Origin: a virus
Length of the DNA: 30,357 bases
Strand: one strand, 5' to 3'
Virus record (IMG/VR): IMGVR_UViG_3300021197_001954
Span: 1-30,357 of that record
Shown here: positions 4,363 through 30,357 of the stretch, one piece after another
How positions within the stretch are numbered: position 1 is the first letter of the stretch
Layout: the number at the start of each line of letters is the position of its first letter
The notes under the pieces: generated by a model
Database searches by the model: none
What the model saw: only the letters and a program-made list of their open reading frames with translations
Told to the model about the DNA's origin: nothing
Made by a program: the position numbers and the translations under genes

Positions 4363-5630
4363 TGTCCGAAGGTCTTTACGGAACAGTCAATACCCAAATT
4401 ACGCGGCAAGATCCTGAAATAGAGAAATATCGCCGTGCGCTTTTGGCCGATGTGCAAGGGTTTGTAAAAAATCAAATTGCAGATCCTCAATCTCCGCCGT
4501 CCTATCAAGTTGCGGGGCTGGGCACGGGAGAGCAGCAAGCGGTCAATCTGGCGTCTCAAGGGGTGGGCGCGTATCAGCCTTTTATACAAGGAGGCTCTCA
4601 AGCCATTAGTGGCGGCCAAGACCTTATTAATCAAGGGGGTGTAGGAGCGCTTCAGCAAGGGCTGGGCGCTTTAGGCAGTGGTCAGACATTTATTAATCAG
4701 GCTGCAAATTTAGCGGCAAATACTCGGAATGAACCATACGGGTATCAAGCTGCCGCAAATCGTGGGGTTGCGCAGACATTAGACCGTGCCGAGGGCATGT
4801 TTGGTGGGACCACGGGAAGCTTTGATCCTAGCAATATTCAGAACTTTATGAATCCTTACGAGGATCAGGCGGTAAGCCAAGCTTTGGCCGATGTAGCTCG
4901 GGCGGGGCAGCAGGAGCAGAATAGGCTTGGAGCCGCGGCTGTCGGGTCTGGGGCGTTTGGAGGATCTCGCCAAGGTATTCAAGCGGGGGAAATTTCTCGT
5001 AACGTGTTGGAGCAACAAGGACGAACCGCGGCTCAAATGCGGCAAGCAGGCTTTGTAGATGCCGCCAATCGCGCGCAGCAAGCGTTTGAGGCGTCGCAAG
5101 GCCGTGGACAGGCGGCCGCATCTCAATTAGGCCAGTTTGGTTTGCAGGGTGCGCAACAACAAGGTAATTTGGGCGTTCAATACGGGCAATTAGGTCAGCA
5201 AGACGTTTCACAACTACTCTCCATGGGCGGGCAACAACAAGCGCTTGGACAAGGGCTGGGGTCTCTCGCCAGCCAATATGGTCAGTTTGGGTCGCAACTT
5301 GGTCAACTGGGCGGGCAGCAAGCCAGCCTTGGGTCAATGCAATCTAGCTTAAATACGCAAGATTTAACAAATCTAACCGCTACCGGCGCTATGGAACGCG
5401 GAGTTCGTCAAGCTGGCCTGGACGCGCGCAGACTTACAGATACGTCGCGTCAAGCGCAGCCTTACCAACAATATGGGTTCTTGTCGGACATCTACATGGG
5501 AACACCTACTTCTCAGCAAACGGTTACGGGGCAAACCGCGCCGCAAGTTTCACCGTTTCAAACCGCGCTAGGTTTGGGTATACAAGGACTTAGTGCCGCG
5601 TCGGGCGCTAGCAGAATGGGGTTATTTTAA
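4362..5630 (+). CDS. Gln/Gly-rich DNA-transfer/internal virion protein
   Basis: A 422-aa protein with strong Gln, Gly and Ala bias. The central motif FMNPYEDQAVSQALADVARAG, continuing into NRLGAAAVGSGAFGGSRQG (about residues 164-206), is a hallmark of phage internal/DNA-transfer proteins as I know them from podoviruses and marine phages. Residues about 240-335 are a degenerate repeat of GQ/LGQ units (LGQFGLQGAQQQGNLG and similar). They probably form extended or coiled structure and may line a transfer channel. The protein is likely packaged in the head and ejected with DNA. It is coupled upstream (TAATG) and downstream (TAATG at 5628-5632). Family-level role is moderately sure; the mechanism is inference. 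Confidence 0.62.
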   Translation: MSEGLYGTVNTQITRQDPEIEKYRRALLADVQGFVKNQIADPQSPPSYQVAGLGTGEQQAVNLASQGVGAYQPFIQGGSQAISGGQDLINQGGVGALQQGLGALGSGQTFINQAANLAANTRNEPYGYQAAANRGVAQTLDRAEGMFGGTTGSFDPSNIQNFMNPYEDQAVSQALADVARAGQQEQNRLGAAAVGSGAFGGSRQGIQAGEISRNVLEQQGRTAAQMRQAGFVDAANRAQQAFEASQGRGQAAASQLGQFGLQGAQQQGNLGVQYGQLGQQDVSQLLSMGGQQQALGQGLGSLASQYGQFGSQLGQLGGQQASLGSMQSSLNTQDLTNLTATGAMERGVRQAGLDARRLTDTSRQAQPYQQYGFLSDIYMGTPTSQQTVTGQTAPQVSPFQTALGLGIQGLSAASGASRMGLF

Positions 5631-8600
5631 TGAACATACCAAATCGTTATAAAGGTTTTTCACGGTTGCCAGAAAACGTTCAGCAGCGCATGGACCCCGA
5701 ACTTGCTCAAAGATACGAAATGGGCGGACCGGTTATGCAGCGACCACTATTTCGTCAAATGGGCGGTCCCGCAGAAATGATGCCTCAAGACGCGATGGCC
5801 GCGGCCCCCGAAACAATGTCTTCCGGAATAATGAGCGGTGACGACATGGCGAGCATGGCCCTAAACAGTATTCCTCCTGAAGTATTACAAGCCGGTCAGA
5901 TGGTTGCTACAGACATGATGGACCGTTTGGACTCCGCGGAAGATATGAAGACGGTAATAGACACTATCCGCGGCGATGAGCAGCCTCTTGCGGCGCGATA
6001 CAGCGAATTAGCGGAGATGGTTGGTCCTGAGGATGCTCAAGCTACCCCCGAATCCGTACTTGCGCTAGTTCAACCCACTCTTATGCTTTCGGAGAATAGC
6101 CCAATTGACGACGGAGTAGGCGGCCTAATGGAAGGCGTCGCGGGAAATCTTCAAATGGACAATCCGGACGGGAGCTCCCCGCCCATGGCAGAAGGTCTAG
6201 GTTCTCTTATGGTACAGGGGGCGGGCAACACTCCCCCTGTAAATTTTAGTCAGGGCGGCCCTGTAAGACTACAGGGCGGTGGCGATGCTTCTCTGCAAAG
6301 CGTCTATCAAGAGATGTTGCCCTTGTACCAGAGTATTATGGGTGATTCAGAAGAGCAACGACGGGCAGGGCAGGCTCAAGCTTTGTTTGCCATATCGGAC
6401 GCTGCCGGCAGGTTTGCAGCTGGCCAGGGCGCCGGTGGGCAGGACCTACGCGGTCTTTCTCCTGCCGCTCAACTTGCAGGGGCCATGACCGGACTGGGCT
6501 CTCAATTTGGTGAAATCGATGCTGCTAATCGCAAGCAGGAGCAGTCGGTTAAGCTTGCCGCATTGCAAGCGGCGCAAAGCGATTATTCGGCAACTAAGGC
6601 GGCGGCGGCGGCGGCGGCGAACAAGGGTATTGGGGATATTTATGAGGTCATCAATTCAAAAGGCGAGCTAGTTGCAACAGTTCCACTGACCACTCAAGTA
6701 GATTTTAACGCTATACAAGAAAAATATCCTGGCACCACTGTTAGAAAACAGTTGAAACGAGCAACTCCAGATATGCTAACTATGGTCAACCCCAGCGATC
6801 TAACCAGCACCATTGCGGTTAATAAAAACGACGCGTCGGCATTCACGGCGGCCGTTGAAGGCGGCTTTGTGCCATTAGCAGATGCAAAAACTCTAGAGCA
6901 ATTTAAAAATCCTGACTCAAAGCCAATTTCTTTGTACAAAGGCAAAGAAACTGTGTTTTTCGATCTTTCGATACCCGAGCATAAAGAGCGGTATAGAAAG
7001 TTGCTTGAAAAGCCAGGTTGGACAAATAATCCAGCCGAATTTACTGCGGAAATTCAGAAAAACAAAGAAATGCTTGTCTTCAAAAATCAAGAACAAATTA
7101 AAGAAACAAACCAAATTAGCCAGGAGCTTCGCCAGCAAGGATATCTTGAAGCTGCGGAAGATCGCGAGTTTGCAGACTACTTACGGAAACGTGAGTTGAC
7201 TTTAGGCGACAAGATGAATGCGGAAGATCGTGCGAAAGAGTACGAGGCCTTCAAGTTTAAACGTGATCAAGAAGCAACTGTTAGCCAGGAGCTTCGCCAG
7301 CAAGGATATCTTGAAGCTGCGGAAGATCGCGAGTTTATTGACTACTTACGGAAACGTGAGCTCACCCTTGAAACAACATTAAATGCGGAACAACGCGCGA
7401 AAGAGTACGAGGCCTTCAAGTTTAAACGTGATCAAGAAGCAACTGTTAGCCAGGAGCTTCGCCAGCAAGGATATACTGAAGCTGCGGAAGATCGCGAGTT
7501 TATTGACTACTTACGGAAACGTGAGCTCACCCTTGAAACAACATTAAATGCGGAACAACGCGCGAAAGAGTACGATGCCTTCAAGTTTAAACGTGATCAA
7601 GAAGCAACTTTAAAACAGGAGCTTCGCCAGCAAGGATATACTGAAGCTGCGGAAAACCGTAACTTTATTGATTACTTACAGAAACGTGAGCTCACCCTTG
7701 AAACAACATTAAATGCGGAACAACGCGCGCAACAGTACGATGCCTTCAAATTTGAACGTGATCAATCGACTAACCCCGTCAAAGGTATTCCACGGGACAT
7801 TTTTGACACCTTTACGCAAGATCAAAAAGAACGTCTAATGCTAGGGGATCCGAAAGATCCACAAACGGTCAAAGGTATTCCACGGGACATTTTTGACCTC
7901 TTATCGACAGAGCAGCAACAAGCCATTGTTGTTGGGGATCAATCGCCGGGAACCCTTACCGAAAGAATGCAGGCCATTGTTCAAGACGTTGATCTTATGA
8001 ATCGTTACGGCGAAGGTAAAACAACGCCGGCGGAAGATGCTAAAATACAAGGCGCTATTTTAGAGTTGGGTGCTCCACGTCCGGGATCAGATGCGGCGCC
8101 TCCGTTGCCTGTTATTGTTCGGGAAGCCGAAGCCGCTAGAGCCCTGTTAGGTTTTCCAACACAAACAGCTTTGGAAAAACCCGTCCCAGAGGAGCTAGTT
8201 GATAACATACCTTTAAAACAGTATGGTGGTGCGTCGTTTGGAACAGGCGCGTTTATTAGAAACATTTTTAACGCAGGGTATTCTGTTTTCTTTGAAGGGG
8301 CTCCCGCAGAAAAAACAAAAGAAGGACTTACGGCACTTAATAGTTTAAACGAAAGTGCAAAAATTGCGTTTAGAAATATGACGCCGGGTCGTGCGGAAGA
8401 AGCTGTTACGAACTTTTCCAAGCTTTTGCCGGAAGGTGCAAAAATTGTTGGAAACCGCACTACCGCCATTTCCGAAATAAACGCTTTAATAGAGTTTTTT
8501 AAACGTGAAGTGGATCAGGCTCAAAAGAATTTACAATACGTTTCTTCGGGCGAAGAGAGACGAAAGGCGGAAGTGGCGCTAGAGCAGGGGATTGCTATTA

Positions 8601-8722
8601 TAAAATCGTATGATGCTTTACGACAAGGCATTGAAAAATCTTTGGCGCCAAAAGAAGACATAGGCGCAATACTGCGAAGAAACGATAAGCGGCAAAAAAA
8701 TTCCGCGGAGGAAGAAGGGTAA
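5630..8722 (+). CDS. Large internal virion protein with 55-residue tandem repeats
   Basis: A 1030-aa protein. The N-terminal 30 residues hold Met/Gly/Pro-rich MGGPVMQRPLFRQMGGPAEM, and NFSQGGPVRLQGGG recurs near residue 205. Such MGGPV/GGPV segments are common in marine phage internal proteins. Residues about 323-330 are a run of eight Ala encoded by a GGC/GCG microsatellite. Residues about 498-717 are four tandem 55-aa charged helical repeats (QELRQQGYxEAAEDREF, then DYLRKRELTL, ending EAFKFKRDQEAT), most likely a long coiled coil. Two 30-aa repeats starting VKGIPRDIFD follow. No enzymatic domain was recognised. The position between two other candidate ejection proteins suggests an internal core or ejection protein; a tape-measure-like role is an alternative. 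Start is coupled to the previous stop; the next gene starts 1 bp after the stop. Confidence 0.6.
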   Translation: MNIPNRYKGFSRLPENVQQRMDPELAQRYEMGGPVMQRPLFRQMGGPAEMMPQDAMAAAPETMSSGIMSGDDMASMALNSIPPEVLQAGQMVATDMMDRLDSAEDMKTVIDTIRGDEQPLAARYSELAEMVGPEDAQATPESVLALVQPTLMLSENSPIDDGVGGLMEGVAGNLQMDNPDGSSPPMAEGLGSLMVQGAGNTPPVNFSQGGPVRLQGGGDASLQSVYQEMLPLYQSIMGDSEEQRRAGQAQALFAISDAAGRFAAGQGAGGQDLRGLSPAAQLAGAMTGLGSQFGEIDAANRKQEQSVKLAALQAAQSDYSATKAAAAAAANKGIGDIYEVINSKGELVATVPLTTQVDFNAIQEKYPGTTVRKQLKRATPDMLTMVNPSDLTSTIAVNKNDASAFTAAVEGGFVPLADAKTLEQFKNPDSKPISLYKGKETVFFDLSIPEHKERYRKLLEKPGWTNNPAEFTAEIQKNKEMLVFKNQEQIKETNQISQELRQQGYLEAAEDREFADYLRKRELTLGDKMNAEDRAKEYEAFKFKRDQEATVSQELRQQGYLEAAEDREFIDYLRKRELTLETTLNAEQRAKEYEAFKFKRDQEATVSQELRQQGYTEAAEDREFIDYLRKRELTLETTLNAEQRAKEYDAFKFKRDQEATLKQELRQQGYTEAAENRNFIDYLQKRELTLETTLNAEQRAQQYDAFKFERDQSTNPVKGIPRDIFDTFTQDQKERLMLGDPKDPQTVKGIPRDIFDLLSTEQQQAIVVGDQSPGTLTERMQAIVQDVDLMNRYGEGKTTPAEDAKIQGAILELGAPRPGSDAAPPLPVIVREAEAARALLGFPTQTALEKPVPEELVDNIPLKQYGGASFGTGAFIRNIFNAGYSVFFEGAPAEKTKEGLTALNSLNESAKIAFRNMTPGRAEEAVTNFSKLLPEGAKIVGNRTTAISEINALIEFFKREVDQAQKNLQYVSSGEERRKAEVALEQGIAIIKSYDALRQGIEKSLAPKEDIGAILRRNDKRQKNSAEEEG
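7121..7765 (+). repeat. Four 165-bp in-frame tandem repeats
   Basis: The sequence CAGGAGCTTCGCCAGCAAGG recurs at 7121, 7286, 7451 and 7616, exactly 165 bp (55 codons) apart. The first three units are nearly identical at the nucleotide level, including silent positions. The fourth has diverged (AENRNF in place of AEDREF, and FERDQ in place of FKRDQ). The period is in frame, so unit gain or loss would change protein length without a frameshift. Near-identity of neighbouring units implies recent duplication or homogenisation. Confidence 0.95.
7778..7954 (+). repeat. Two 30-codon repeats (VKGIPRDIFD units)
   Basis: GTCAAAGGTATTCCACGGGA occurs at 7778 and again at 7868, 90 bp apart and in frame. 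The conserved core is VKGIPRDIFD. The remainder of each unit differs (TFTQDQKERLMLGD versus LLSTEQQQAIVVGD) but keeps the same pattern of Gln and hydrophobic residues, ending GD. It lies directly after the 55-aa repeats in the same protein. Confidence 0.9.
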
Positions 8723-8723
8723 T

Positions 8724-11700
8724 ATGGCAGAAGAACAGTTAGGCCCCACTATTGAGGCGGCAAAAAAACAAGGGTCTTTTTTTGGGGAAAAAATGCCTTT
8801 CGATTATGAGAAGGCTAGAGCAGAAGGCGCGACAGATGAACAGATTGCAGACTATCTAGCTCAAGAAACAGGCTACGACATAAAGAACGCGTATGCCGAG
8901 GGGGCCGCCCCTACTGATGTAATTGTATATCTTTCAGACGTAAAAGATGCGCCCTTTACCGCGCTTACTCGCGGGGTTCAGGAAGGAGGGTCTCTTTCTG
9001 CAGGTATGGTCACGGGTGGGGTTGCCGGTTTCCAAGCGGGAATGGTTGCGGCGCCTTTTCTTGGTCCTTTTGCACCTGTGGCGCCGATCGTTGGCGCAGG
9101 AATTGGCGCTTTATCGGGACTGGCCTTGGCAAATAAATTAAACGATTTTTTTATTCCCGACGATAAATTTGTAAATACTGGAATGAGGGCCGCGGGGGAG
9201 ACCTTTGGCGCATCGATTTCGCCATTACCTGTTCCTTACACTCTCGCGGCAAAGTCTCCTGGTCTTGCCGCGAGCATGTTTATTTCAGAATACGCTAAAA
9301 AGCAGGGGGGAAAGGGAGTGTACATCACTTCTGCGGACAAAATGTTGCAAACGATTCAACGGTCCCCTGGACTTTTTGGAGCATATGAGACAGGAGCCGC
9401 GGGAGCCGCGGCAGTGGCGGGAGGCGCGTCGGAAAGCGCCGATCCAGGAAATATTTTAAAGAGAATGGGCGCAGAAATGGGCGCCGCTATTGTTCTAAAC
9501 CCAATGAATATTGTTACGCGTGCAGCAGGACCTGTGAGAGAGGGCGTAAAACGTATCATGTCTCGTTTTAGCGCGGATACTCGTCAGCATAAAATCGGTG
9601 AAATGATTGTTAAAGCGTTAAACGAGGCAGGAGAGGATCCGGCCGCCCTTGCCGACGCGTTAAAAGCTATCGATCTTGAGGGTGCTCAAACAGAAATGCA
9701 GCGGCTTGCTGCCGAAAAAGGCGTTGATATTGGAAAACTTTCAACTGCGGCCCAGGTGCAGAGCCCCGTGCTCGCTCAACTGCAAGCTTCCTTGCGTAAA
9801 AATGCGCGGGTAGGGCCGACGTTAGATAACGCAGCACTTAACAACTTAGAAAAAGTAACCGACGTCGTAGACTTACTGGTTCAAATGGACGACCCCGAAG
9901 CCTTGGCGCTTGCAGCGGACCTTCAATTAGCTCAATACGAAGGAACGTTGTCGGCACTTTTAAACCAAGCGGAGGCAAAAGCGGTAGAGACCGCCGCAAG
10001 CGCCTTTACAGGGACTCAGGCCAGTGCCGCAAAAGCGGGCGATATTATCGTGACTATGACGAAAGACGTTCTAGACCAAGCCCGTAATCAAGAAAAAGCA
10101 TTGTACACTAAGATAGATAAGAAAGAGCCCGCGGAAGCGGGAAGTGTTATAGCAAAATTTGATGAACTAACCGGAGAGCTTTTGCCAGAAAGCCCCTTTC
10201 CAAGTTTAATCCGCCGTTTTGTTGGTCGAGTATCTGGCCGCGATATGGACGTCCCCGAGGACGCGGTAGTCGGGCAAATAGCCGCCTTAAACAAAGAATT
10301 GGCCGCTGCTCAAAAGAAATTTAAGACGTTGTCCGCCAAAGGCGGTGTAGCCGAAGACGAGTTGTTTGGAGCGTACCCTGATTTATTCCGGCAGCCGCAG
10401 GGAGGAAACCAAAAAGCGATACGCGATCTGGGGAACATAGTTGCCGATTACCGTGCCAAAGGTAGCGATCAACGGGGGAGCTCCTTAGATTCCACAACGC
10501 GCAACCGCGTGGCACAATTGGCAGAGGCAAAAATTGCCGAACTTTTAGCCACTGAGGAAATAACCTTTTTGCGCAGTCAACAATCTCGCGCAACAGCCGA
10601 GGCGGCGGAACAAGTTTCTGAATTGCCAGAAATCACAGTAGGCGATCTAACCGCTTTCCGCAGCGAAATGCTTTCTATGGCCCGCGATGCACGGGCCGCG
10701 GGTAATTTTCGCGACAGTAACTTTTATGGTCAAATGGCCGAGGCCGCTTTAGAAGACCTGGGACTAGGGGCTCAAATTCCTGCGGGAGAAATGCCTACAA
10801 AAAACCAGATGAATTTAAAAGCCGCTCACAACTTTAGCCGAGCGTTAAACGACACCTTTAGGCGTGCTTTTGCGGGGGATTTACTTAGTAAGAATAAAAC
10901 AGGAGCTAGTAATCTTCCTCCAGAATTGGTTGCCGATAAAATATTAGGAGGAAGTGCCAACGCAACGAATTTACGACTTCTTCAATTGCAGGATGTTGCT
11001 CGTTTTATGGCTACAAACGCGGGAGAAGAATTTGCGGGCACTACTGCGGCTAATCTTGATACGTTGAAAGGCGCGCAAGAAACTATTTTACGCTCTGCGG
11101 CAACAAGGTTTTACAACCCAGAAACCGGGCGAGTGAATATGGCCGCGTTAGGCCAATGGTCTGCTCAAAATGCAGAGACCCTTGCCGCATTTCCTTCACT
11201 ACGCTCCGATTTAAGTAGCGCGGGCACAGCGTATAAAGTGCTTGCGGACACAAAAGAAAAGAATAGCCTTTTCAGTAGAAAGTTAAACGATCAGCTTTCT
11301 TTGTCGGCATTTATGGGCGCCGATGAACGTCCTGGAGACATGATAGGGCAGTTAATTGCAGACCCCGGCAATCGAAGCGCTGTAAAAACGCCCGGCAAAA
11401 ACCTTAATGCTGCGATGCTTTCTGCTCGGAGAGCGGGAGAAAACGTTTTCAACGGTCTTCGTAGCGCAATTCTTGACCACGCTTTTGTGTATGCTGGCGG
11501 CGACCAAGGCAAAATGAACATGAAGGCTTTTCAGGACTATTTTACCAAGCCTTTGGCTCGGGGGCAGGATTCGGTCTTGAGCATCATGCGGCAGCAAGGC
11601 ATGTTCTCGGATTCGGAAGCCGTTCGTTTTAATCAGCTTTTAAAAGAAACCACTTTCGTTGAGCAAAAGATTTTGCAGGGAAAGGGCGCGGAATTAGACG

Positions 11701-15309: not shown

Positions 15310-16848
15310 ATGTCAGATGTACGGAAGTTTGCCGATATTTTTGCCGGGCTAGAGCAAGCCTACGGCACGTATACAATAGATAAAACACAGGCAAACGGTA
15401 AAAAAGCGGGTAAAGCCACCGTAGTTCGCGAACCGCGGACCACGAAACACTGGGAGGGGCATCTCTCCGGAAAGGGTGTTAGTGTAGGCATTATTCCGAT
15501 TAACGAAGACAATAAGGTCAAATGGGGGTGTATCGACGTAGATACCTATCCGCTCGACCACAAGTTGTTAATATCGCAAATTAGAAAGTTGAAGCTGCCT
15601 TTGGTCGTATGTCGATCAAAGTCGGGCGGTGCACATATGTTTTTGTTTGTGAGCGATTGGATCACGGCAAAAGAGATGCAGGAAGTGCTCGGTCATATAG
15701 CCTCAGTCCTTGGCCATGGTGGCTGCGAGATTTTTCCAAAACAGATAAAACTGTTCTTAGACCGCGGAGACGTGGGCAACTTCTTGAACATGCCATATTA
15801 CAACGCGGAGGACGGCCTCCGTTACGGATTTAACGATGATGGGACTGCGGCTACTTTAGCCGAGTTTTTTGCATTACATGAGCAGTATGTTCAAACGCCG
15901 GAGCAGGTCCAGGCGCTAAAAATAGAGGATACTGGCGATGCGGTTATTCCTAGCGGCCCGCCGTGCCTTCAGATCCTTGCCAAGCAAAAGATAAGCGAAG
16001 GTGGGCGCAACAATGGATTATTTAACTTAGGCGTATACTTGCGCAAAGCTTACCCCGACAGCTGGGAATCTGAAATTCTGTCATACAATGCGCAGTATTT
16101 AGATCCGCCATTGCCGCTCAACGAAGTTAACATTGTGGCCAAGCAGCTACAGAAAAAGGATTACGCGTATAAATGCAAAGACGCGCCCATACAGTCCTAC
16201 TGCAACGCCGAGTTATGCCGTACTAGGAAATACGGCGTGGGAGCGGCTGTGACAGGGGCTACAGTGGCCAACTTGCGCAAATACAACTCTCTGCCCCCGG
16301 TTTGGTTTATGGACGTCAACGGGGAGCCTCTGGAGCTAGACACGGAGGCGCTGATGAATCAGACCGCGTTTCAACGATCATGTGTAGAGCAGTTGAACCA
16401 CCTTCCGCGGACCGCGCGCAAAGAGCAGTGGGAAGCTCGGATCAATCAATTGCTAACGGACATGACCGAGACTGAGGGCGCCATTGTGGAGGTGTCCGAG
16501 GACGCGTCGATCGATGGCCAGTTCTATGATTATCTGGAGGAGTTTTGCACGACGCTGCAAAAAGCCAATACGCGCGAGGAAATATTGTTGCGCCGACCTT
16601 ATACAGATGAGGATGAAGGGCGCATTTACTTTAGGCTTAAAGACTTTGAGGGGCACCTTCGTAAGAATAAATTCTTTGAATACAAAAGTCACAAAATTGC
16701 GCAGCGACTTCGGGATCGAAACGGTGAAAGTACTGTTATGAAAATCAAGGGTAAAGCAGTTCGTCTGTGGGTTATCCCCGCCTACGACATTGTAAACTTT
16801 GACATAGATACTCCTGATTTTGGACAAGGCGCGGAGGCACCATTCTAA
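15310..16848 (+). CDS. Archaeo-eukaryotic-type primase (TOTE/PrimPol-like)
   Basis: A 512-aa protein. The AEP-type motifs are C-I-D76-V-D78 (WGCIDVDTYPLD), S-x-H at S105-H109 (CRSKSGGAHMF) and a following FPKQ/GNFLNMPYYN region (142-165). These are the features of TOTE-type primase-polymerase domains. Residues about 216-310 form a helical C-terminal domain (EGGRNNGLFNLGVYLRK), with C219, C288, C298 and C303 as a possible metal or Fe-S site. The last 200 residues are unassigned; it ends GAEAPF. Likely makes primers for the phage family A polymerase. The start is preceded by AGGGAAGGACGGGT. No promoter was seen between it and the upstream terminator. The stop overlaps the next ATG (TAATG). Confidence 0.85.
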   Translation: MSDVRKFADIFAGLEQAYGTYTIDKTQANGKKAGKATVVREPRTTKHWEGHLSGKGVSVGIIPINEDNKVKWGCIDVDTYPLDHKLLISQIRKLKLPLVVCRSKSGGAHMFLFVSDWITAKEMQEVLGHIASVLGHGGCEIFPKQIKLFLDRGDVGNFLNMPYYNAEDGLRYGFNDDGTAATLAEFFALHEQYVQTPEQVQALKIEDTGDAVIPSGPPCLQILAKQKISEGGRNNGLFNLGVYLRKAYPDSWESEILSYNAQYLDPPLPLNEVNIVAKQLQKKDYAYKCKDAPIQSYCNAELCRTRKYGVGAAVTGATVANLRKYNSLPPVWFMDVNGEPLELDTEALMNQTAFQRSCVEQLNHLPRTARKEQWEARINQLLTDMTETEGAIVEVSEDASIDGQFYDYLEEFCTTLQKANTREEILLRRPYTDEDEGRIYFRLKDFEGHLRKNKFFEYKSHKIAQRLRDRNGESTVMKIKGKAVRLWVIPAYDIVNFDIDTPDFGQGAEAPF

Positions 16849-17381
16849 TGTCATCAGAAAGAATGAGAAAAATTTATGCTATGCGGCAGGAGCTCAATGA
16901 AAAGGGCCGGCCCCGGTATTCGTATCAAAAGATAGGCAACGAGTTTGGCATCACTCGCGAACGCGTGCGGCAGATACTGGCCAAACGTGAGCGTTTGGAG
17001 ATATGGTATGCGCGCGCCAAACAACACGATCCTTTTTTTGATTTCAGCAATATTACTCGCATGGATCAATTTATACCGCCGTTGGTGTCTATTCGCACAA
17101 CGAATGCGATACGCAACGGGGTTCCACCGACACTACGCGTGCAAGAATTTGTGGATCGGGTGGACCCGGCGGAACTTCTGGCGATACCCAATTGTGGGGT
17201 GGTTACAGTAAAAGAATTATTTGGAGCAATTGAGGAGGCTGGTTACGATGTATCGCATCTTCGGACCCCCCGGTACGGGAAAAACTACGACACTACTAAA
17301 TATGGTGGAGGAAGCCCTCTCCAATGGTACATCTCCAAATACAATTGCCTTCCTAGCCTTTACTCGGAAAGCCGCGAATGA
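16848..17381 (+). CDS. Sigma-region-4-like HTH plus alpha-CTD-like protein (paralogue 1)
   Basis: A 177-aa frame. Residues 24-45 (SYQKIGNEFGITRERVRQIL) match the helix-turn-helix of sigma factor region 4. Residues about 80-133 (SIRTTNAIRNGVPPTLRV, then PAELLAIPNCGVVTVKELF) align by eye with the C-terminal domain of RNA polymerase alpha (LTVRSANCLKAE and LLKTPNLGKKSLTEI in E. coli), i.e. a helix-hairpin-helix module. A DNA-binding regulator or RNA polymerase adaptor is the likely role. The coding end is odd: the last 45 residues lie over the UvrD-like gene in another frame (134-nt overlap). Their low-complexity look suggests that only the first 135 residues form a domain. The start is coupled to the primase stop by TAATG. 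Confidence 0.72.
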   Translation: MSSERMRKIYAMRQELNEKGRPRYSYQKIGNEFGITRERVRQILAKRERLEIWYARAKQHDPFFDFSNITRMDQFIPPLVSIRTTNAIRNGVPPTLRVQEFVDRVDPAELLAIPNCGVVTVKELFGAIEEAGYDVSHLRTPRYGKNYDTTKYGGGSPLQWYISKYNCLPSLYSESRE

Positions 17382-25020: not shown

Positions 25021-25214
25021 TAGTTTATCTCCTCCGTTTCAGATACTTGAATAGAAACCGGAAAAGTTTCCCCGATTTCAATCATGCAATCAATTGCAGC
25101 AACCTTTGCATCTGCAATTGTTTCAAAACTTTTGTTGCAAAGGCTTTCGTGAACGCGACCAACAAAGTGAAAACGTCCCGAGGGTGCTTGGGTTATTATA
25201 GAAGTTTTAAACAC
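25020..25214 (-). CDS. First gene of the minus operon, unknown small protein
   Basis: Read here from GTG 25214, a 64-aa product, because GGAGG at 25226-25222 sits 7 bases upstream, an ideal Shine-Dalgarno. An in-frame ATG at 25259 would give 79 aa, but it lacks a ribosome site and lies only 8 bases after a perfect -35 hexamer, so it is probably not transcribed from that promoter. The product (VFKTSIITQAPSGRFHFVGR, then KSFETIADAKVAAIDCMIEI) looks like a small alpha/beta protein with helix DAKVAAIDCMIEIGE, similar in layout to short DUF-type phage proteins. No family assigned. The stop is coupled to the Api92-like start. Confidence 0.55.
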   Translation of the reverse strand: MFKTSIITQAPSGRFHFVGRVHESLCNKSFETIADAKVAAIDCMIEIGETFPVSIQVSETEEIN

Positions 25215-25364: not shown

Positions 25365-25438
25365 TGGATCTTTGTTGTAAAAAATAGTAACATGGTTGGG
25401 AGAAGCGCGTTCAAAAGACGGAAAAAATAAAAACACTC

Positions 25439-25460
25439 GCCGCGGCTCACGGGCCGCGGC
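25439..25460 (+). other. GC-rich 5' leader hairpin
   Basis: GCCGCGGC (25439-25446), loop TCACGG and GCCGCGGC (25453-25460) form a perfect 8-bp stem ending 3 bases before the AAAGGAG Shine-Dalgarno of the 52-aa ORF. The hairpin-then-SD layout mirrors that of the repeated cassettes further right, though the sequence differs and no U tract follows. Confidence 0.6.
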
Positions 25461-27091: not shown

Positions 27092-27700
27092 ATGGAAATC
27101 CAAATCGAAACTGCACTACTCAAAGCGGCCATGTTGGCCACGTCAAAGGACGAGGCACGCTATTATTTGAAAGGCGTTTATTTTGAATTGTCTGGAAATC
27201 ATGTCCGAATAGTTGCAACCGATGGCCACCGAATGTTTGTGGCATGTCAGGAAATGGCAAACCCTTTTGAAAATAACGTTACAATGGTTTTGCCGTTTGA
27301 CGGTTTGAAAAAGTCTTTAACAGGCCTACGGTCAAAGGATACGTTTGTATCGTGCCAGTTTGGTACGCTCCAGTCCACCATAAATGACGTGGTGATGGAG
27401 CCCGTGGACTGTACTTATCCTGACTACAAACGCGTGGTGCCGCAAAAGCTTTCCGGCGAAACCGCGCAGTTCAATCCCGTCTACCTTGGTGAAATGGGTA
27501 AAATGGCTAAATGTTTGGGCGGCGCGCTGGTAAATATTGCACATAACGGTCAAGGCCCTGCGCTGGTCAGTTTCGGTCGGTTGGACTGTTTCGCTGTTAT
27601 TATGCCCATCGATCGTTCGCGTGTTGAGCCCGCGCTAACCGCGGACATGGTAAACGATATTTTGGGCGCAAAAATCATGGACATGTTAAAGGCGGCTTGA
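27092..27700 (+). CDS. Two-domain beta-clamp-like protein (DnaN lacking domain I)
   Basis: A 202-aa protein from ATG 27092 (AGGAGAAAAGAGC upstream). ARYYLKGVYFELSGNHVRIV, followed by ATDGHR (residues 42-47), and YPDYKRVVP (109-117) match domain II of bacterial sliding clamps (E. coli RYYLNGMLFE, VATDGHRLAV, FPDYRRVLP). CFAVIMPIDR (166-175) matches the clamp end YVVMPMRL. Domain I is missing and about 27 extra residues follow. Bacterial clamps are three-domain dimers of about 366 aa. A two-domain chain would need to trimerise, as PCNA does, to close a six-domain ring. Likely the processivity clamp of the phage polymerase; the stop overlaps cassette copy 1. Confidence 0.82.
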   Translation: MEIQIETALLKAAMLATSKDEARYYLKGVYFELSGNHVRIVATDGHRMFVACQEMANPFENNVTMVLPFDGLKKSLTGLRSKDTFVSCQFGTLQSTINDVVMEPVDCTYPDYKRVVPQKLSGETAQFNPVYLGEMGKMAKCLGGALVNIAHNGQGPALVSFGRLDCFAVIMPIDRSRVEPALTADMVNDILGAKIMDMLKAA

Positions 27701-27766
27701 CCATTACTCAAAATTACTATTAAAAATAGGGCAGGGGGCAATCCTGCCCTATTTTTTTGGAGAAAA
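27697..27766 (+). promoter_or_regulatory. Regulatory cassette copy 1 (promoter-hairpin-SD)
   Basis: TTGACC (27697-27702), 17-bp spacer ATTACTCAAAATTACTA, then TTAAAA (27720-27725), the hairpin and GGAGAAAA (27759-27766). The -35-like hexamer overlaps the TGA stop of the clamp gene. This copy differs from the others at position 6 of the -35 and just before the hairpin (AATAGGG), which lengthens the stem to 10 bp. Confidence 0.8.
27726..27758 (+). terminator. Cassette 1 terminator-like hairpin
   Basis: ATAGGGCAGG (27726-27735) pairs perfectly with CCTGCCCTAT (27743-27752) around loop GGGCAAT, with T7 overlapping the stem base. It terminates transcription from the clamp side, or acts on the short leader of the next operon. 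Confidence 0.88.
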
Positions 27767-27770
27767 GAAA

Positions 27771-27956
27771 ATGAAACGAGCTATTTTTTTTGACGAGTGT
27801 GGATCCGAAATCGCGATTGATTGCGTGGGCGGTGAGACTGTCGAGCAGCTGCTCACCAGCTACCCTGAATATCAATTTAGGTATTGGGAGGATCCCGACC
27901 GCTACTATACTCGGGTCGACTATTATGACCCTGTAGAGGACACAGACAATGCCTAA
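27771..27956 (+). CDS. Cassette 1 ORFan A
   Basis: A 61-aa protein, first gene of the pair behind cassette 1. ATG 27771 lies 4 bases after the cassette SD (GGAGAAAA). It is acidic, with helix GGETVEQLLTSYP and a Tyr/Asp-rich tail (YWEDPDRYYTRVDYYDPVED). No family recognised. The C terminus overlaps the next start by 8 bases. Acidic, Tyr-rich small phage proteins are often inhibitors or DNA mimics of host factors, but here that is only a compositional hint. Confidence 0.58.
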   Translation: MKRAIFFDECGSEIAIDCVGGETVEQLLTSYPEYQFRYWEDPDRYYTRVDYYDPVEDTDNA

Positions 27957-28152
27957 AGTATGGATTAGCGCAACAATGGAAACCTATCTGACATGGGAGG
28001 GAGACGTACCCGATGACGTACCCGAAGATGAATGGCGTACATGGATCAAACACAACGTGGATGGTGGTGAGTTCATACAGCATCACGGCCTGTTTGATGG
28101 CGGTTGGTATTTGGGCGACGACGTACACTTAGTAGATGAGGGGGACGTGTGA
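27949..28152 (+). CDS. Cassette 1 ORFan B
   Basis: A 67-aa protein overlapping ORFan A by 8 bases. It begins MPKVWISATMETYLTWEGDV, with an acidic middle (PDDVPEDEWRTWIKHNVDGG) and a Gly/Asp-rich end. The nucleotide stretch around 28002-28024 repeats GACGTACCCGA, a small in-frame duplication. It is strongly acidic, and many Trp residues suggest a compact beta fold. No family. The TGA overlaps an ATG that opens a 9-codon remnant ending at cassette 2. Confidence 0.55.
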   Translation: MPKVWISATMETYLTWEGDVPDDVPEDEWRTWIKHNVDGGEFIQHHGLFDGGWYLGDDVHLVDEGDV

Positions 28153-28177
28153 TGACACATGTAATGCAACCAGCCAT

Positions 28178-28246
28178 TTGACTATTACTCAAAATTACTA
28201 TTAAATGTGGGGCAGGGGCAATCCTGCCCTATTTTTTTGGAGAAAA
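28178..28246 (+). promoter_or_regulatory. Regulatory cassette copy 2 (promoter-hairpin-SD)
   Basis: TTGACT (28178-28183), 17-bp spacer, TTAAAT, hairpin and GGAGAAAA. Identity with copy 4 extends upstream through CCAGCCA (28170-28176). Those bases here form the end of a 9-codon frame (28152-28181) reading Pro-Ala-Ile-stop, as if carried over from another gene end. One G is missing from the loop compared with the other copies. Confidence 0.85.
28210..28238 (+). terminator. Cassette 2 terminator-like hairpin
   Basis: GGGCAGG (28210-28216), loop GGCAAT, CCTGCCC (28223-28229), then TATTTTTTT. The stem is identical to the other copies while the loop is one base shorter, so the stem is the conserved part. 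Confidence 0.88.
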
Positions 28247-28248
28247 TT

Positions 28249-28491
28249 ATGGTTAACAAATCACTTCGCCCGCTCAACACCATCGCGGCAGATATTTCCG
28301 CTGATTGGAAAAAAGTAAATTTTGCAGCGGCGCCTTATTTATCCGCTATGCGCACGTTGCGTGGTATAAACGAAAATTACGGCTATGATAGCGGGCAATC
28401 GGTTGTGCGTTATTTTTTGGCGAACGCTGGGACATGGCGCGGCGAAAAAGCGCGTGAAATAAAAACCGAATTGAAGGGGATGTTAAAATGA
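28249..28491 (+). CDS. Cassette 2 ORFan A, conserved phage protein
   Basis: An 80-aa protein. The true start is ATG 28249, just after the cassette SD; a GTG frame opening at 28207 would translate the hairpin itself and is rejected. The sequence RPLNTIAADISADWKKVNFA, followed by PYLSAMRTLRGI, YGYDSGQSVVRYFLANAGTW and RG-x-KAREIKTELK, is one I have seen in phages and plasmids as a small helical protein of unknown role. The high density of recognisable residues suggests a conserved family rather than a true ORFan. It overlaps the next gene by four bases (ATGA). Confidence 0.65.
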   Translation: MVNKSLRPLNTIAADISADWKKVNFAAAPYLSAMRTLRGINENYGYDSGQSVVRYFLANAGTWRGEKAREIKTELKGMLK

Positions 28492-28751
28492 AAAAAATAA
28501 ATTTTATTCATACACCAAAAAAATTAAATGGTTATAACGTTATCGCGTTTGCACCCTGCCAGCCGCTCGATTTTAAAAATTTTATAGTTTTAATTGATTT
28601 GGGCGATAATTCTCTAACACCTTATTGTGCCGCGCATTGGAACGTCAGCGCGGGGGACGGTTGGAATGCGGGCGACTATTGCGAAACATACGCGGCCGCG
28701 TTTGAAGCCTATATCAGTAGGGCGAGCGCGGACCGATTAGTCGCTATTTGA
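28488..28751 (+). CDS. Cassette 2 ORFan B
   Basis: An 87-aa protein coupled to the previous gene (ATGA). N-terminal KKINFIHTPKKLNGYNVIAF and a core FIVLIDLGDNSLTPYCAAHW, then GDGWNAGDYCETYAAAFEAY, suggest a small alpha/beta fold with two conserved-looking Cys (C64 and C77 region). No family recognised. The end is Val-Ala-Ile-TGA, the stop being part of the TTGACT of cassette 3. Confidence 0.55.
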   Translation: MKKINFIHTPKKLNGYNVIAFAPCQPLDFKNFIVLIDLGDNSLTPYCAAHWNVSAGDGWNAGDYCETYAAAFEAYISRASADRLVAI

Positions 28752-28817
28752 CTATTACTCAAAATTACTATTAAATATGGGGCAGGGGGCAATCCTGCCC
28801 TATTTTTTTGGAGAAAA
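28748..28817 (+). promoter_or_regulatory. Regulatory cassette copy 3 (promoter-hairpin-SD)
   Basis: TTGACT (28748-28753), 17-bp spacer, TTAAAT, ATGGGGCAGG hairpin and GGAGAAAA (28810-28817). The TGA of the previous gene is embedded in the -35-like hexamer. It differs from copy 4 by one base before the hairpin (ATATGG versus ATGTGG). Confidence 0.85.
28780..28809 (+). terminator. Cassette 3 terminator-like hairpin
   Basis: GGGCAGG (28780-28786), loop GGGCAAT, CCTGCCC (28794-28800), then TATTTTTTT. Same stem as the other copies. Confidence 0.88.
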
Positions 28818-28822
28818 GAAAA

Positions 28823-29662
28823 ATGAAACACACAATCCCTACCCCGGCAACTAAAAAAGCAATCAAGGCCTCATTGGCCGCGCTGGGCTTTAAATTTACA
28901 ACTTTACTTGCCGCGCCTCTTGGCAATCCTAAAATAGCCAAGAGCCTAAAAAAGGCCGGCGTCGTGACGTTTCCTATGCACTTGGCCCCACATACTTTGA
29001 GCGGTTTTAATACTTGCGCAAGCGCGACGGAAGCTTGCATTGCCCCCTGCCTAGACAAGGCCGGCAATCCTGCGGCCGGCGATGCAAAGCGCGCGGCAAG
29101 GATAGCGCGAACACAAGCTTTTTTTCGCGCCCGCGCGTTGTTCTTGGCATTGCTTAAAATCGAAATTGACGCCGCGATAAAATACGCCGCGCGGAAAAAT
29201 ATGGATTGCGCATTCCGCTTGAATGCGACTTCTGATATACGTTGGGAGGCTGTCCGTTTCTCTTGTGGGACTACTGTTGCCGACTATATCGCGGGAAAAG
29301 GCGCGACGGCCTATGACTACACAAAGCACATTAACAGAAAAGCGCCCGCGCATTATCATTTGACCTTTTCATACTTGGGCAATGATGACCACGCGGCAAC
29401 AGCAATCGAACGCGGGCAGAACATCGCCGTTGTGTTCGATACGCCACGCGGAAAACCATTGCCCGCGTCGTTAAACATTGCGGGCAAGCGCCTTGCTATT
29501 CACGACGCAGACGAACACGACGCGCGGTTTTTAGATCCGCGTGGCGTGGTTTGTGGCTTGCGCTTTAAATATGATACCACGCGCGGCGCATTGCCACGAC
29601 GCGACCAGCTGGCCGCCGGCATTGCATCAGGTTTTGTGATTAGTGGAAAGGTGGCGGCGTAA
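28823..29662 (+). CDS. GP88/DUF7227-like phage protein
   Basis: A 279-aa protein starting at ATG 28823, 5 bases after the cassette SD; the TTG frame from 28808 translates the SD and is rejected. A Cys-rich motif (NTCASATEACIAPC, about residues 63-76) is followed by RIARTQAFFRARALFLALLK and FRLNATSDIRWE, then YDYTKH, HLTFS and IHDADEHDARFLDPRGVVCG. This resembles phage GP88/DUF7227-type proteins, whose function is unknown to me; the Cys cluster may hold a metal or Fe-S centre in a barrel-like fold. Richer in GC and Ala than its neighbours, so perhaps separately acquired. The stop overlaps the next ATG (TAATG). Confidence 0.68.
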   Translation: MKHTIPTPATKKAIKASLAALGFKFTTLLAAPLGNPKIAKSLKKAGVVTFPMHLAPHTLSGFNTCASATEACIAPCLDKAGNPAAGDAKRAARIARTQAFFRARALFLALLKIEIDAAIKYAARKNMDCAFRLNATSDIRWEAVRFSCGTTVADYIAGKGATAYDYTKHINRKAPAHYHLTFSYLGNDDHAATAIERGQNIAVVFDTPRGKPLPASLNIAGKRLAIHDADEHDARFLDPRGVVCGLRFKYDTTRGALPRRDQLAAGIASGFVISGKVAA

Positions 29663-29853
29663 TGTTTCAATTGTCTTGGAGTATTAACCATGGGAATAAT
29701 AACATAGAGGATTTTTTCACGATACATGATGACCTTTTGAGCGCAAAAAAGGATTGTGAAAATATTAATTCGGAAACTGTGCTTCATTGCTGGTCGATAT
29801 CAAAAATAATTGCTGCGTCCGAGCCGCATTGGGTGGATCCGCCAGCCATTTGA
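29662..29853 (+). CDS. Cassette 3 ORFan B
   Basis: A 63-aa protein coupled to the previous stop by TAATG. It begins MFQLSWSINHGNNNIEDFFT and contains CENINSETVLHCWSISKIIA. It is AT-richer than its upstream partner. It looks like a small alpha/beta protein without known motifs. It ends Pro-Pro-Ala-Ile-TGA, and this CCAGCCATTTGA end is the same sequence found as a remnant before cassette 2. The stop is embedded in the TTGACT of cassette 4. Confidence 0.55.
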   Translation: MFQLSWSINHGNNNIEDFFTIHDDLLSAKKDCENINSETVLHCWSISKIIAASEPHWVDPPAI

Positions 29854-29914
29854 CTATTACTCAAAATTACTATTAAATGTGGGGCAGGGGGCAATCCTGC
29901 CCTATTTTTTTGGA
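29850..29914 (+). promoter_or_regulatory. Regulatory cassette copy 4 (promoter-hairpin-SD)
   Basis: TTGACT (29850-29855), 17-bp spacer, TTAAAT, hairpin and T7-GGA (to 29914). Identity then ends: the SD becomes GGAAGG before ATG 29925, showing that the conserved unit stops at the start of the SD. Upstream identity with copy 2 includes CCAGCCA. Confidence 0.85.
29882..29911 (+). terminator. Cassette 4 terminator-like hairpin
   Basis: GGGCAGG (29882-29888), loop GGGCAAT, CCTGCCC (29896-29902), then TATTTTTTT. Same stem as the other copies. Confidence 0.88.
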
Positions 29915-29924
29915 AGGTATAAAA

Positions 29925-30113
29925 ATGAAAAATTATGAATTCTGGTTAGAGAGTGACTATGGTGCAATGTTTGGCCTCATTGAGGCTAAATCGGAAGCAC
30001 ATTTTATTGAAATACTCCGCCAAGATCACCGCGCGGATATCGGCGCTGATGGAGCGTTTGATTGCCCAGCCACGGGTGCTGAAAAATTTATCGACTGGAA
30101 CCTAAAAGCTTAA
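29925..30113 (+). CDS. Cassette 4 single gene, small unknown protein
   Basis: A 62-aa protein starting at ATG 29925 after GGAAGG; the longer GTG frame from 29877 runs through the hairpin and is rejected. It begins MKNYEFWLESDYGAMFGLIE, followed by AKSEAHFIEILRQDHRADIG. A strand-helix pattern with a C-terminal FIDWNLKA suggests a small alpha/beta protein. No family recognised. It is the only gene of its unit, where the other cassettes carry two, and a strong terminator follows 23 bp after its stop. Confidence 0.58.
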   Translation: MKNYEFWLESDYGAMFGLIEAKSEAHFIEILRQDHRADIGADGAFDCPATGAEKFIDWNLKA

Positions 30114-30136
30114 TTAAAATTTAAACCACGATATAG

Positions 30137-30165
30137 CCCGCGCCGATATCGGCGCGGGTTTTTTT
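30137..30165 (+). terminator. Strong terminator closing the cassette region
   Basis: CCCGCGCCGA (30137-30146) pairs with TCGGCGCGGG (30149-30158), a perfect 22-bp palindrome with a TA centre, followed by seven T. It ends the last cassette transcript. Confidence 0.93.
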
Positions 30166-30357
30166 ATGCTCACCCGCTGTTCAAATAAAATAAAGTAAGA
30201 CAAGGCGCCCGCGGCGCGCCCGCCGTGGCTTAAACGTATGAGCCCGTGCGCCGTGCGCCGTGGTACGCGACCAGCTGGCCGGCAACGATCGATCAGCGGA
30301 CCAGCGGACCAGCGGACCAGCGGACCAGCTGGCCGGCAACGATCGATCAGCGGACCA
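30166..30357. other. GC-rich, repeat-filled right end without a convincing gene
   Basis: After the terminator the sequence becomes GC-rich and repetitive: GGCGCCCGCGGCGCGCCCGCC near 30206, two GTGCGCC units near 30245-30258, then the repeats at 30269-30357. A frame from ATG 30238 stays open to the window edge (40 codons), but it lacks a ribosome site and encodes only repeat-derived Arg/Gly/Pro/Ser. ACGCGACCAGCTGGCC at 30265-30280 is also found at 29599-29614 within the GP88-like gene, suggesting duplication of its 3' end. Confidence 0.5.
30269..30357. repeat. Direct repeat pair (35 bp) with 8-bp tandem units
   Basis: The 35-bp unit starting GACCAGCTGGCCGGC and ending AGCGGACCA occurs exactly at 30269-30303 and 30323-30357, period 54 bp. 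Between and overlapping them GCGGACCA is repeated four times in tandem (30296, 30304, 30312, 30320). The unit contains the palindromes CCAGCTGG and GATCGATC. The window ends exactly at the end of the second unit. Confidence 0.9.

Follow-up and report, generated by a model that had tools for sequence, protein, structure and literature searches.

The viral record IMGVR_UViG_3300021197_001954 of IMG/VR is a fragment of 30,357 nt, analysed here in full and called the window; the region studied is an island of small genes at its 3' end, in which four nearly identical units, named joints in the following, are found on the + strand between the genes. The joints start at 27697, 28178, 28748 and 29850, are about 70 nt long and have pairwise identities of 0.86-0.93 (mean 0.90), in agreement with an earlier note on this DNA, which had claimed a unit of about 70 bp at these four positions; four 70-nt copies at 86-93% identity are not due to chance. 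A repeat search grouped them in one 86-nt family with spacings of 481, 570 and 1102, and no further copy was found in the 30,357-nt record at up to three mismatches to the 21-nt promoter core. From the comparisons described below, the joints are probably repeated expression modules, homogenised by recombination, that carry exchangeable accessory blocks, a reading held with moderate confidence.

All the joints of the window share the same structure, and each of the parts listed in the note is present: a TTGAC(C/T) hexamer, a spacer of 17 nt, a second hexamer, TTAAA(A/T), a GGGCAGG/CCTGCCC hairpin, a run of seven T (T7) and a Shine-Dalgarno (SD) sequence, which is GGAG in joints 1-3 and GGAAGG in joint 4. 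In joint 1 (27697-27770) TTGACC is found at 27697-27702, TTAAAA at 27720-27725, the hairpin at 27722-27756 (core 27729-27749, apex GGGCAAT), T7 at 27752-27758 and GGAG at 27759-27762. Joint 2 (28170-28248) begins with a CCAGCCA tail, followed by TTGACT (28178-28183), TTAAAT (28201-28206), the hairpin (28207-28232), T7 (28232-28238) and GGAG (28239-28242). Joint 3 (28748-28822) contains TTGACT at 28748-28753, TTAAAT at 28771-28776, the hairpin at 28777-28803, T7 at 28803-28809 and GGAG at 28810-28813; joint 4 (29842-29924), again with a CCAGCCA tail, has TTGACT at 29850-29855, TTAAAT at 29873-29878, the hairpin at 29879-29905, T7 at 29905-29911 and GGAAGG at 29912-29917.

The TGA within TTGAC is also the stop codon of the upstream gene at joint 1 (dnaN), joint 3 (B2) and joint 4 (C2), while at joint 2 it closes only a 9-codon remnant. 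The CCAGCCA directly upstream of joints 2 and 4 (28170 and 29842) represents the last codons of a preceding gene; since both joints keep these bases, one of them was probably copied from the other together with a gene tail.

Genes of the island

The left border of the island is a fixed gene for a dnaN-like sliding clamp (27092-27700; Pfam DNA_pol3_beta_2, 5.5e-13), which, like all the genes and signals that follow, is on the + strand. Joint 1 precedes A1 (27771-27956, 61 aa) and A2 (27949-28152, 67 aa), both acidic (pI 4.1) and overlapping by 8 nt; A1 has a homologue (45% at the amino acid level) in a different slot of the related locus L098, and A2 is an ORFan. Behind joint 2 are B1 (28249-28491, 80 aa), assigned to phrog_13953 (unknown function), and B2 (28488-28751, 87 aa), with an overlap of 4 nt; the homologues of B2 in L097, L093, L098 and L107 are each also located immediately 5' of a joint. 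Joint 3 is followed by C1 (28823-29662, 279 aa; Pfam GP88, 4e-33) and, with a 1-nt overlap, by the ORFan C2 (29662-29853, 63 aa); a GP88-like gene is also present in the same island of phage HTVC023P (L096:15305-16003). D1 (29925-30113, 62 aa) is the single gene behind joint 4, and its homologues in L017, L019, L020 and L098 are found outside the island, on the opposite strand; 3' of D1 the island ends with a terminator-like hairpin (30135-30165, hairpin 30135-30160) of 11 bp, 9 of them GC, with a T run. Thus, the coupled pairs of small genes described for three joints, and the single gene before a terminator for the fourth, are indeed found. The genes behind the joints had also been called unrelated, and no similarity among the cargo proteins of the window was detected by blastp at E<=1.

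An anti-host or anti-defence role had been suggested for this cargo, and the proposal can be retained in part. In 48 cargo proteins of nine genomes the Pfam matches were GP88, ArdA (1.1e-32), DUF7227, DUF932, DUF7249 and Kyano_Gp96, and PADLOC gave zero matches in the same proteins. The ArdA-like (antirestriction) gene, L094:7477-7992, lies alone between joints 1 and 2 of a relative, in the same slot as A1 and A2, but none of the cargo of the window itself matched a defence or anti-defence protein. The acidity of A1 and A2 is compatible with a DNA-mimic role, without being evidence for one.

Joints in related phages

Among named phages, the DNA polymerase of the window is nearest to those of DSL-LC04 (55%), 023Pt_psg01, HTVC023P and HTVC027P (48-55%), and no relation to T4-type phages is seen. 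The HTVC023P-type group consists of pelagiphages classified as Podoviridae (PMC9599517), which supports the podovirus-like marine phage that had been supposed. Relatives were gathered from IMG/VR, 80 by the polymerase and 80 by the small terminase; the latter was found in 102 loci, in 35 of which the large terminase is also present downstream, and in the loci with both terminases an accessory island of about 3.5-5.7 kb extends from terS/nuclease(/dnaN) to terL.

At the same place, from dnaN to the large terminase, L097, L093, L098, L107, L101 and L094 have joints of their own, similar to each other within each genome; these are at 2040, 2620 and 3540 in L097 (TerS 90%), at 2700, 3560 and 4546 in L093, and number two to six in each of the other four. 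In G033 (59.7 kb) and G017 (61.0 kb), scanned whole for the promoter motif with up to three mismatches or the hairpin motif with up to two, all matches are inside the island. Mean identity of the joints within a genome, taken from one MAFFT alignment with ends set by hand, is 0.90 in the window, 0.70 in L097, 0.79 in L093, 0.81 in L098, 0.99 in L107, 0.63 in L101 and 0.64 in L094, while the joints of the window have at most 0.70 identity with any joint of another genome. The earlier note had set unrelated intergenic DNA in a conserved gene order against its own reading; the closest relative, L097, comes near to this, with dnaN and B2 in order and joints only 0.62-0.63 identical to those at the same positions of the window, but its joints are alike among themselves (0.65-0.75).

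The exact 21-nt promoter core, the 33-nt hairpin core and a degenerate core have no match in viral contigs outside the record; thus, the supposed mobile cassettes are not the same sequence moving between genomes, and each phage has a private joint. The sole match of the core among genome contigs falls within the coding sequence of a serA-like gene from a SAR116 genome and was taken as chance. Isolated phages (50,697 phage records, blastn sensitivity) and plasmids gave only weak matches to the joint, none of them significant in the phages, and the one to Synechococcus phage DSL-LC02 was discarded as an unrelated hairpin-SD likeness. The cultured HTVC023P has repeated AACTAACAAAG-type leaders and no GC hairpin joints, so that not all members of the group possess the hairpin; repeated ACATACAGGAGAAA leaders are found in DSL-LC04, which is metagenome-assembled (PMC10611076).

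Cargo turnover and homogenisation of the joints

L093 and L107 share 92-94% identity over their common DNA and differ in their cargo: in L107 the 133-aa gene is deleted together with joint 1, the 161-aa gene before joint 3 is lost, its last bases remaining, and a new 74-aa gene is found immediately behind the joint-3 leader, where the previous first gene is now second. Joints 2 and 3 of L107 are 99% alike, while their positional counterparts in L093, 88-90% identical to them, are 82% alike to each other; this pattern is most readily accounted for by a recent event of gene conversion or unequal exchange from joint to joint. A different event concerns C1, which is 94% identical at the nucleotide level to a gene of L005 (L005:5001-5846), a contig with no other relation to the window. 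Since the similarity is limited to 28822-29654, from the start codon to 8 nt before the stop, the comparison shows a recent horizontal transfer of a single cargo gene without its joint. Overall, insertions, deletions and replacements of cargo at joints are seen when L093, L098 and L107 are compared. That joints are kept while cargo is swapped, as had been proposed, thus holds in so far as standardised, homogenised joints with changing cargo recur in relatives.

The proposed leader hairpin and its predicted promoter

The apex of the window-type hairpin is GGGCAAT or GGCAAT, and across the wider group it is G(C/U)AA, most often as a GGGCAA loop. In 156 loci (1.40 Mb) GGGCAA is found on 25 distinct 6-bp stems, which makes it the second of 3243 hexaloops, after cUUCGg, against a mean of 2.4; 70 of the 73 GGGCAA hairpins with a stem of at least 5 bp are on the + (coding) strand of the loci, and seven copies (GAAGT/GCTTC) inside a coding gene were not counted as leader. 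The stems covary: in 25 leader hairpins all six pairs have changes on both sides (41 cells, compared with 11.9 in shuffles), and 96.7% of the cells are paired, compared with 67.3%. These leaders had been preselected for pairing and loop, so that the test of record uses leaders picked by gap length alone: a G(C/T)AA-apex hairpin is present in 55 of 244 island leaders, in 2 of 211 intragenic controls and in 12 of 244 shuffled leaders, and the mirror apex in 2 of 244, counts that are not independent events, the loci being partly related and some overlapping (largest duplicates removed). In Rfam no family matched above the gathering threshold in 16 sources, which gave weak sub-threshold matches only.

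Upstream of 60 apex hairpins the promoter-like scores have a mean of 6.28, compared with 3.09 in composition shuffles, and the distance from the -10 end to the hairpin is mostly 1-8 nt, so that the hairpin is predicted to begin at about +1. The window hairpins, with their T7, are terminator-like, and U-rich runs are also found in L093, L097 and L098. A further type of joint, present in L148, L165, L142, L132 and L071, consists of a terminator-like hairpin, a TTTACT-18-TATAAT-like promoter, a short GGGCAA-loop hairpin and an SD.

Some other ideas on these sequences were abandoned. A 10-bp tandem periodicity, noticed by eye in the promoter part, is mostly not significant compared with shuffles (p(max) 0.04-0.94); a kissing-loop pairing of the leader loop with terminator loops (CATTGT), also by eye, was dropped, GGGCAA allowing only three pairs; and hairpin promoters of the N4 type were rejected, since in the joints the promoter-like hexamers come first and the hairpin is downstream of them. 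As a separate observation, in L062:14232, L071:5500, L159:468 and others a GGGCAA hairpin is the second of a tandem pair that precedes genes beyond the island, a layout reminiscent of HK022 put. The window also encodes, at 16848-17381 (+), a protein that matches sigma-70 region 4 in Pfam (2.3e-06) and whose C-terminal part resembles by eye an alpha-CTD-type helix-hairpin-helix; its DSL-LC04 counterpart is annotated as RNA polymerase sigma-G factor. This sigma-like protein could take part in recognising TTGAC promoters.

Proposed mechanism and alternative explanations

The sequences themselves establish the identity of the repeats, their recurrence and restriction to the island, their homogenisation, the turnover of the cargo and the conserved, covarying hairpin. 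We infer from these features that the joints act as promoters, terminators and leaders, and that recombination is the cause of their likeness. Each joint would combine a sigma-70-like promoter, whose -35 TTGAC is also the stop of the gene before, with a GC-rich hairpin at the predicted start and an SD. For read-through transcripts of the upstream gene, the hairpin and T7 are expected to be an intrinsic terminator that closes the block before; in transcripts begun at the joint, the same hairpin would be the 5' terminal leader, carrying the conserved G(C/U)AA apex and probably protecting or tagging the mRNA. In this way each gene block would receive its own start, leader and SD. Their near-identity makes the joints natural sites for homologous exchange (gene conversion, unequal exchange, or exchange between co-infecting relatives), which in turn would keep them alike; copies would be homogenised per genome, and blocks gained, lost and moved between dnaN and terL. 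A more tentative proposal, which may well prove wrong, is that the G(C/U)AA-apex leader, mostly with a GGGCAA loop, is an undescribed and widespread phage RNA element that marks the mRNAs of accessory islands, its loop being recognised by a factor of phage or host origin, and that the private joint versions, produced by concerted evolution, channel cargo exchange to close kin.

Several points weigh against the joints as recombining expression modules. A simple sigma-70 consensus scan did not list the window promoters, TTAAAT being a weak -10 and a poor match to TATAAT, and only 23 of the 60 leaders reach a promoter p<=0.05, where 3 are expected. Placed immediately downstream of +1, the T7 hairpin might stop the very transcripts begun at its joint, and L094 has only a short, broken T run (CCCCCTTTGCTTTGGAG), hence termination cannot be the conserved function everywhere. 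Orthologous joints of L093 and L098 have identities of 0.82-0.90, compared with 0.75-0.86 within each genome, and this positional signal indicates that homogenisation is episodic; moreover, the changes of cargo do not always end exactly at joints, so that the swapping claim is too simple in this respect. Finally, all genomes with hairpin joints are metagenome assemblies; misassembly of the short repeats is, however, unlikely, because the same pattern is found in seven contigs from several samples, with intact reading frames on both sides.

Among the alternatives, a loop-recognised RNA signal is somewhat unlikely: a 5' G(C/U)AA hairpin would bind a factor of the phage or the host and serve antitermination, as in lambda boxB or HK022 put, or translation control, and this factor, not recombination, would keep the copies alike. 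The invariant loop on varying, covarying stems, the sense orientation and the fixed place between -10 and SD are in its favour. However, a factor acting in trans would hold the loop constant, not the whole 70 nt or so of the copies in a genome; the analysis yielded no candidate RNA-binding protein, and the short units leave antitermination little to bridge.

It is doubtful that the joints are plain spacers like the promoter-early stem-loops (PeSLs) of T4-type phages, in which the hairpin only terminates the preceding gene and has no leader function, its GCAA/GUAA apex being a generic stable loop of GNRA type. GNRA loops are common stable caps, and the T7 of the window hairpins, together with the U-rich runs of L093, L097 and L098, fits such a role. 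Conversely, GGGCAA with its unpaired GG is not a minimal GNRA loop, yet it caps 25 distinct stems; the apex hairpin of L148/L165/L142-type joints lacks a T run, and a separate terminator-like hairpin is found upstream of the promoter; and the L094 hairpins also have no proper T run.

Improbable is also purifying selection alone, in which a common regulator would constrain every joint and the joints would not recombine. The promoter motif and the loop are indeed the most conserved parts, and the positional identity retained in L093 and L098 is in line with it; but neutral-looking positions are identical within a genome and different between genomes too, joints 2 and 3 of L107 reached their likeness within the short divergence from L093, and joints 2 and 4 of the window share even the upstream gene tail. 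A MITE-like small mobile element spread within this genome would explain why a genome has one short sequence in several near-identical copies, but can hardly be right, as there are no terminal inverted repeats and no target duplications, the copies have a single orientation and lie exactly between stop and start codons, and diverged homologous joints are at the same places in relatives.

If the joints are homogenised expression modules, they would be a second, independent case, outside T4-type phages and in abundant marine phages, of standardised joints for the swapping of small accessory genes, and the place to seek anti-host or anti-defence genes would be behind the joints, in the interval from terS/dnaN to terL. 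With its conserved loop, the leader hairpin offers a concrete RNA element for testing, one that has no entry in Rfam, and concerted evolution of joints in sister genomes would make it testable by sequencing how phages keep repeated signals alike while exchanging cargo.

Other observations on the window and its relatives

In L094 (about 10485-11690, +) the large terminase frame is apparently broken after MPPRH by an intein-like insert (LALDTPVLTVAGWKTIGTVEVGDFVYGSDG...) and resumes at NTKSEFASFLFPAW. In L011, whose polymerase is 99% identical, an additional small gene that has a ATGGAGAAAAGAACATG start of its own is inserted immediately 5' of the GC hairpin at window position 25439 (window 25423-25430; L011:10756-11126), and a second extra segment is present near window position 25034. 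GC repeats abound in the spacer that separates the island from terL in several relatives (window 30265-30357, L101:8425-8627, L095:35080-35360; GACCAGCTGGCCGGCAACGATCGATCAGCG, and CGTGGCCC in tandem in L101); this spacer is perhaps a packaging or replication site, and likely the reason why the contig ends there. Within the large structural gene at 5630-8722 of the window, about four tandem repeats of 165 nt are present at 7052-7765.

Comparison with known systems

Morons of lambdoid phages are accessory genes with their own promoter and terminator, whose signals are individual, whereas the joints described here are shared and homogenised. Lambda boxB is recognised through a GNRA-like loop. HK022 put is a hairpin RNA near the transcript 5' end that acts as a long-range antiterminator in early operons (PMC9378689). 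The likeness to put and to lambda nut/boxB consists in phage hairpins near the 5' end of a transcript; the joints, in contrast, precede many short units.

In cluster K mycobacteriophages, repeated elements named SAS and ESAS are found where translation of some small genes begins, with a genome-specific consensus; the start site carries SAS, a fixed 13-bp GGGATAGGAGCCC, about half of the copies having an extra upstream inverted repeat, and ESAS is a 17-bp inverted repeat with a variable spacer (PMC3203893). The joints resemble them as repeated, genome-specific elements at small-gene starts and differ by the promoter-like part and the tight hairpin with a conserved loop; indeed, the 13-bp SAS is not contained in the joint sequences of the window and relatives.

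The PeSLs of T4-type phages were reportedly described by Arbiol et al. in 2010 and Comeau et al. in 2014. They have in common with the joints a repeated unit of sigma-70-like promoter, predicted in the joints, and stem-loop between small non-essential genes; in both, genes are shuffled within a variable region and the sequences that join them are homogenised (PMC4503421). Differently from PeSLs, the joints belong to HTVC023P-type phages, each with its own sequence version; their hairpin follows the promoter at the predicted +1, immediately precedes the SD and has a conserved G(C/U)AA apex, and the -35 overlaps the upstream stop codon. The idea of an independent version of the T4-type cassettes is thus sustained by make-up and gene turnover, while promoter and terminator activity are a matter of prediction. 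The joint probably works like a T4-type PeSL, which is the nearest known system, but is not a member of it by host group or sequence, and the conservation of the loop is the part that goes beyond PeSLs.

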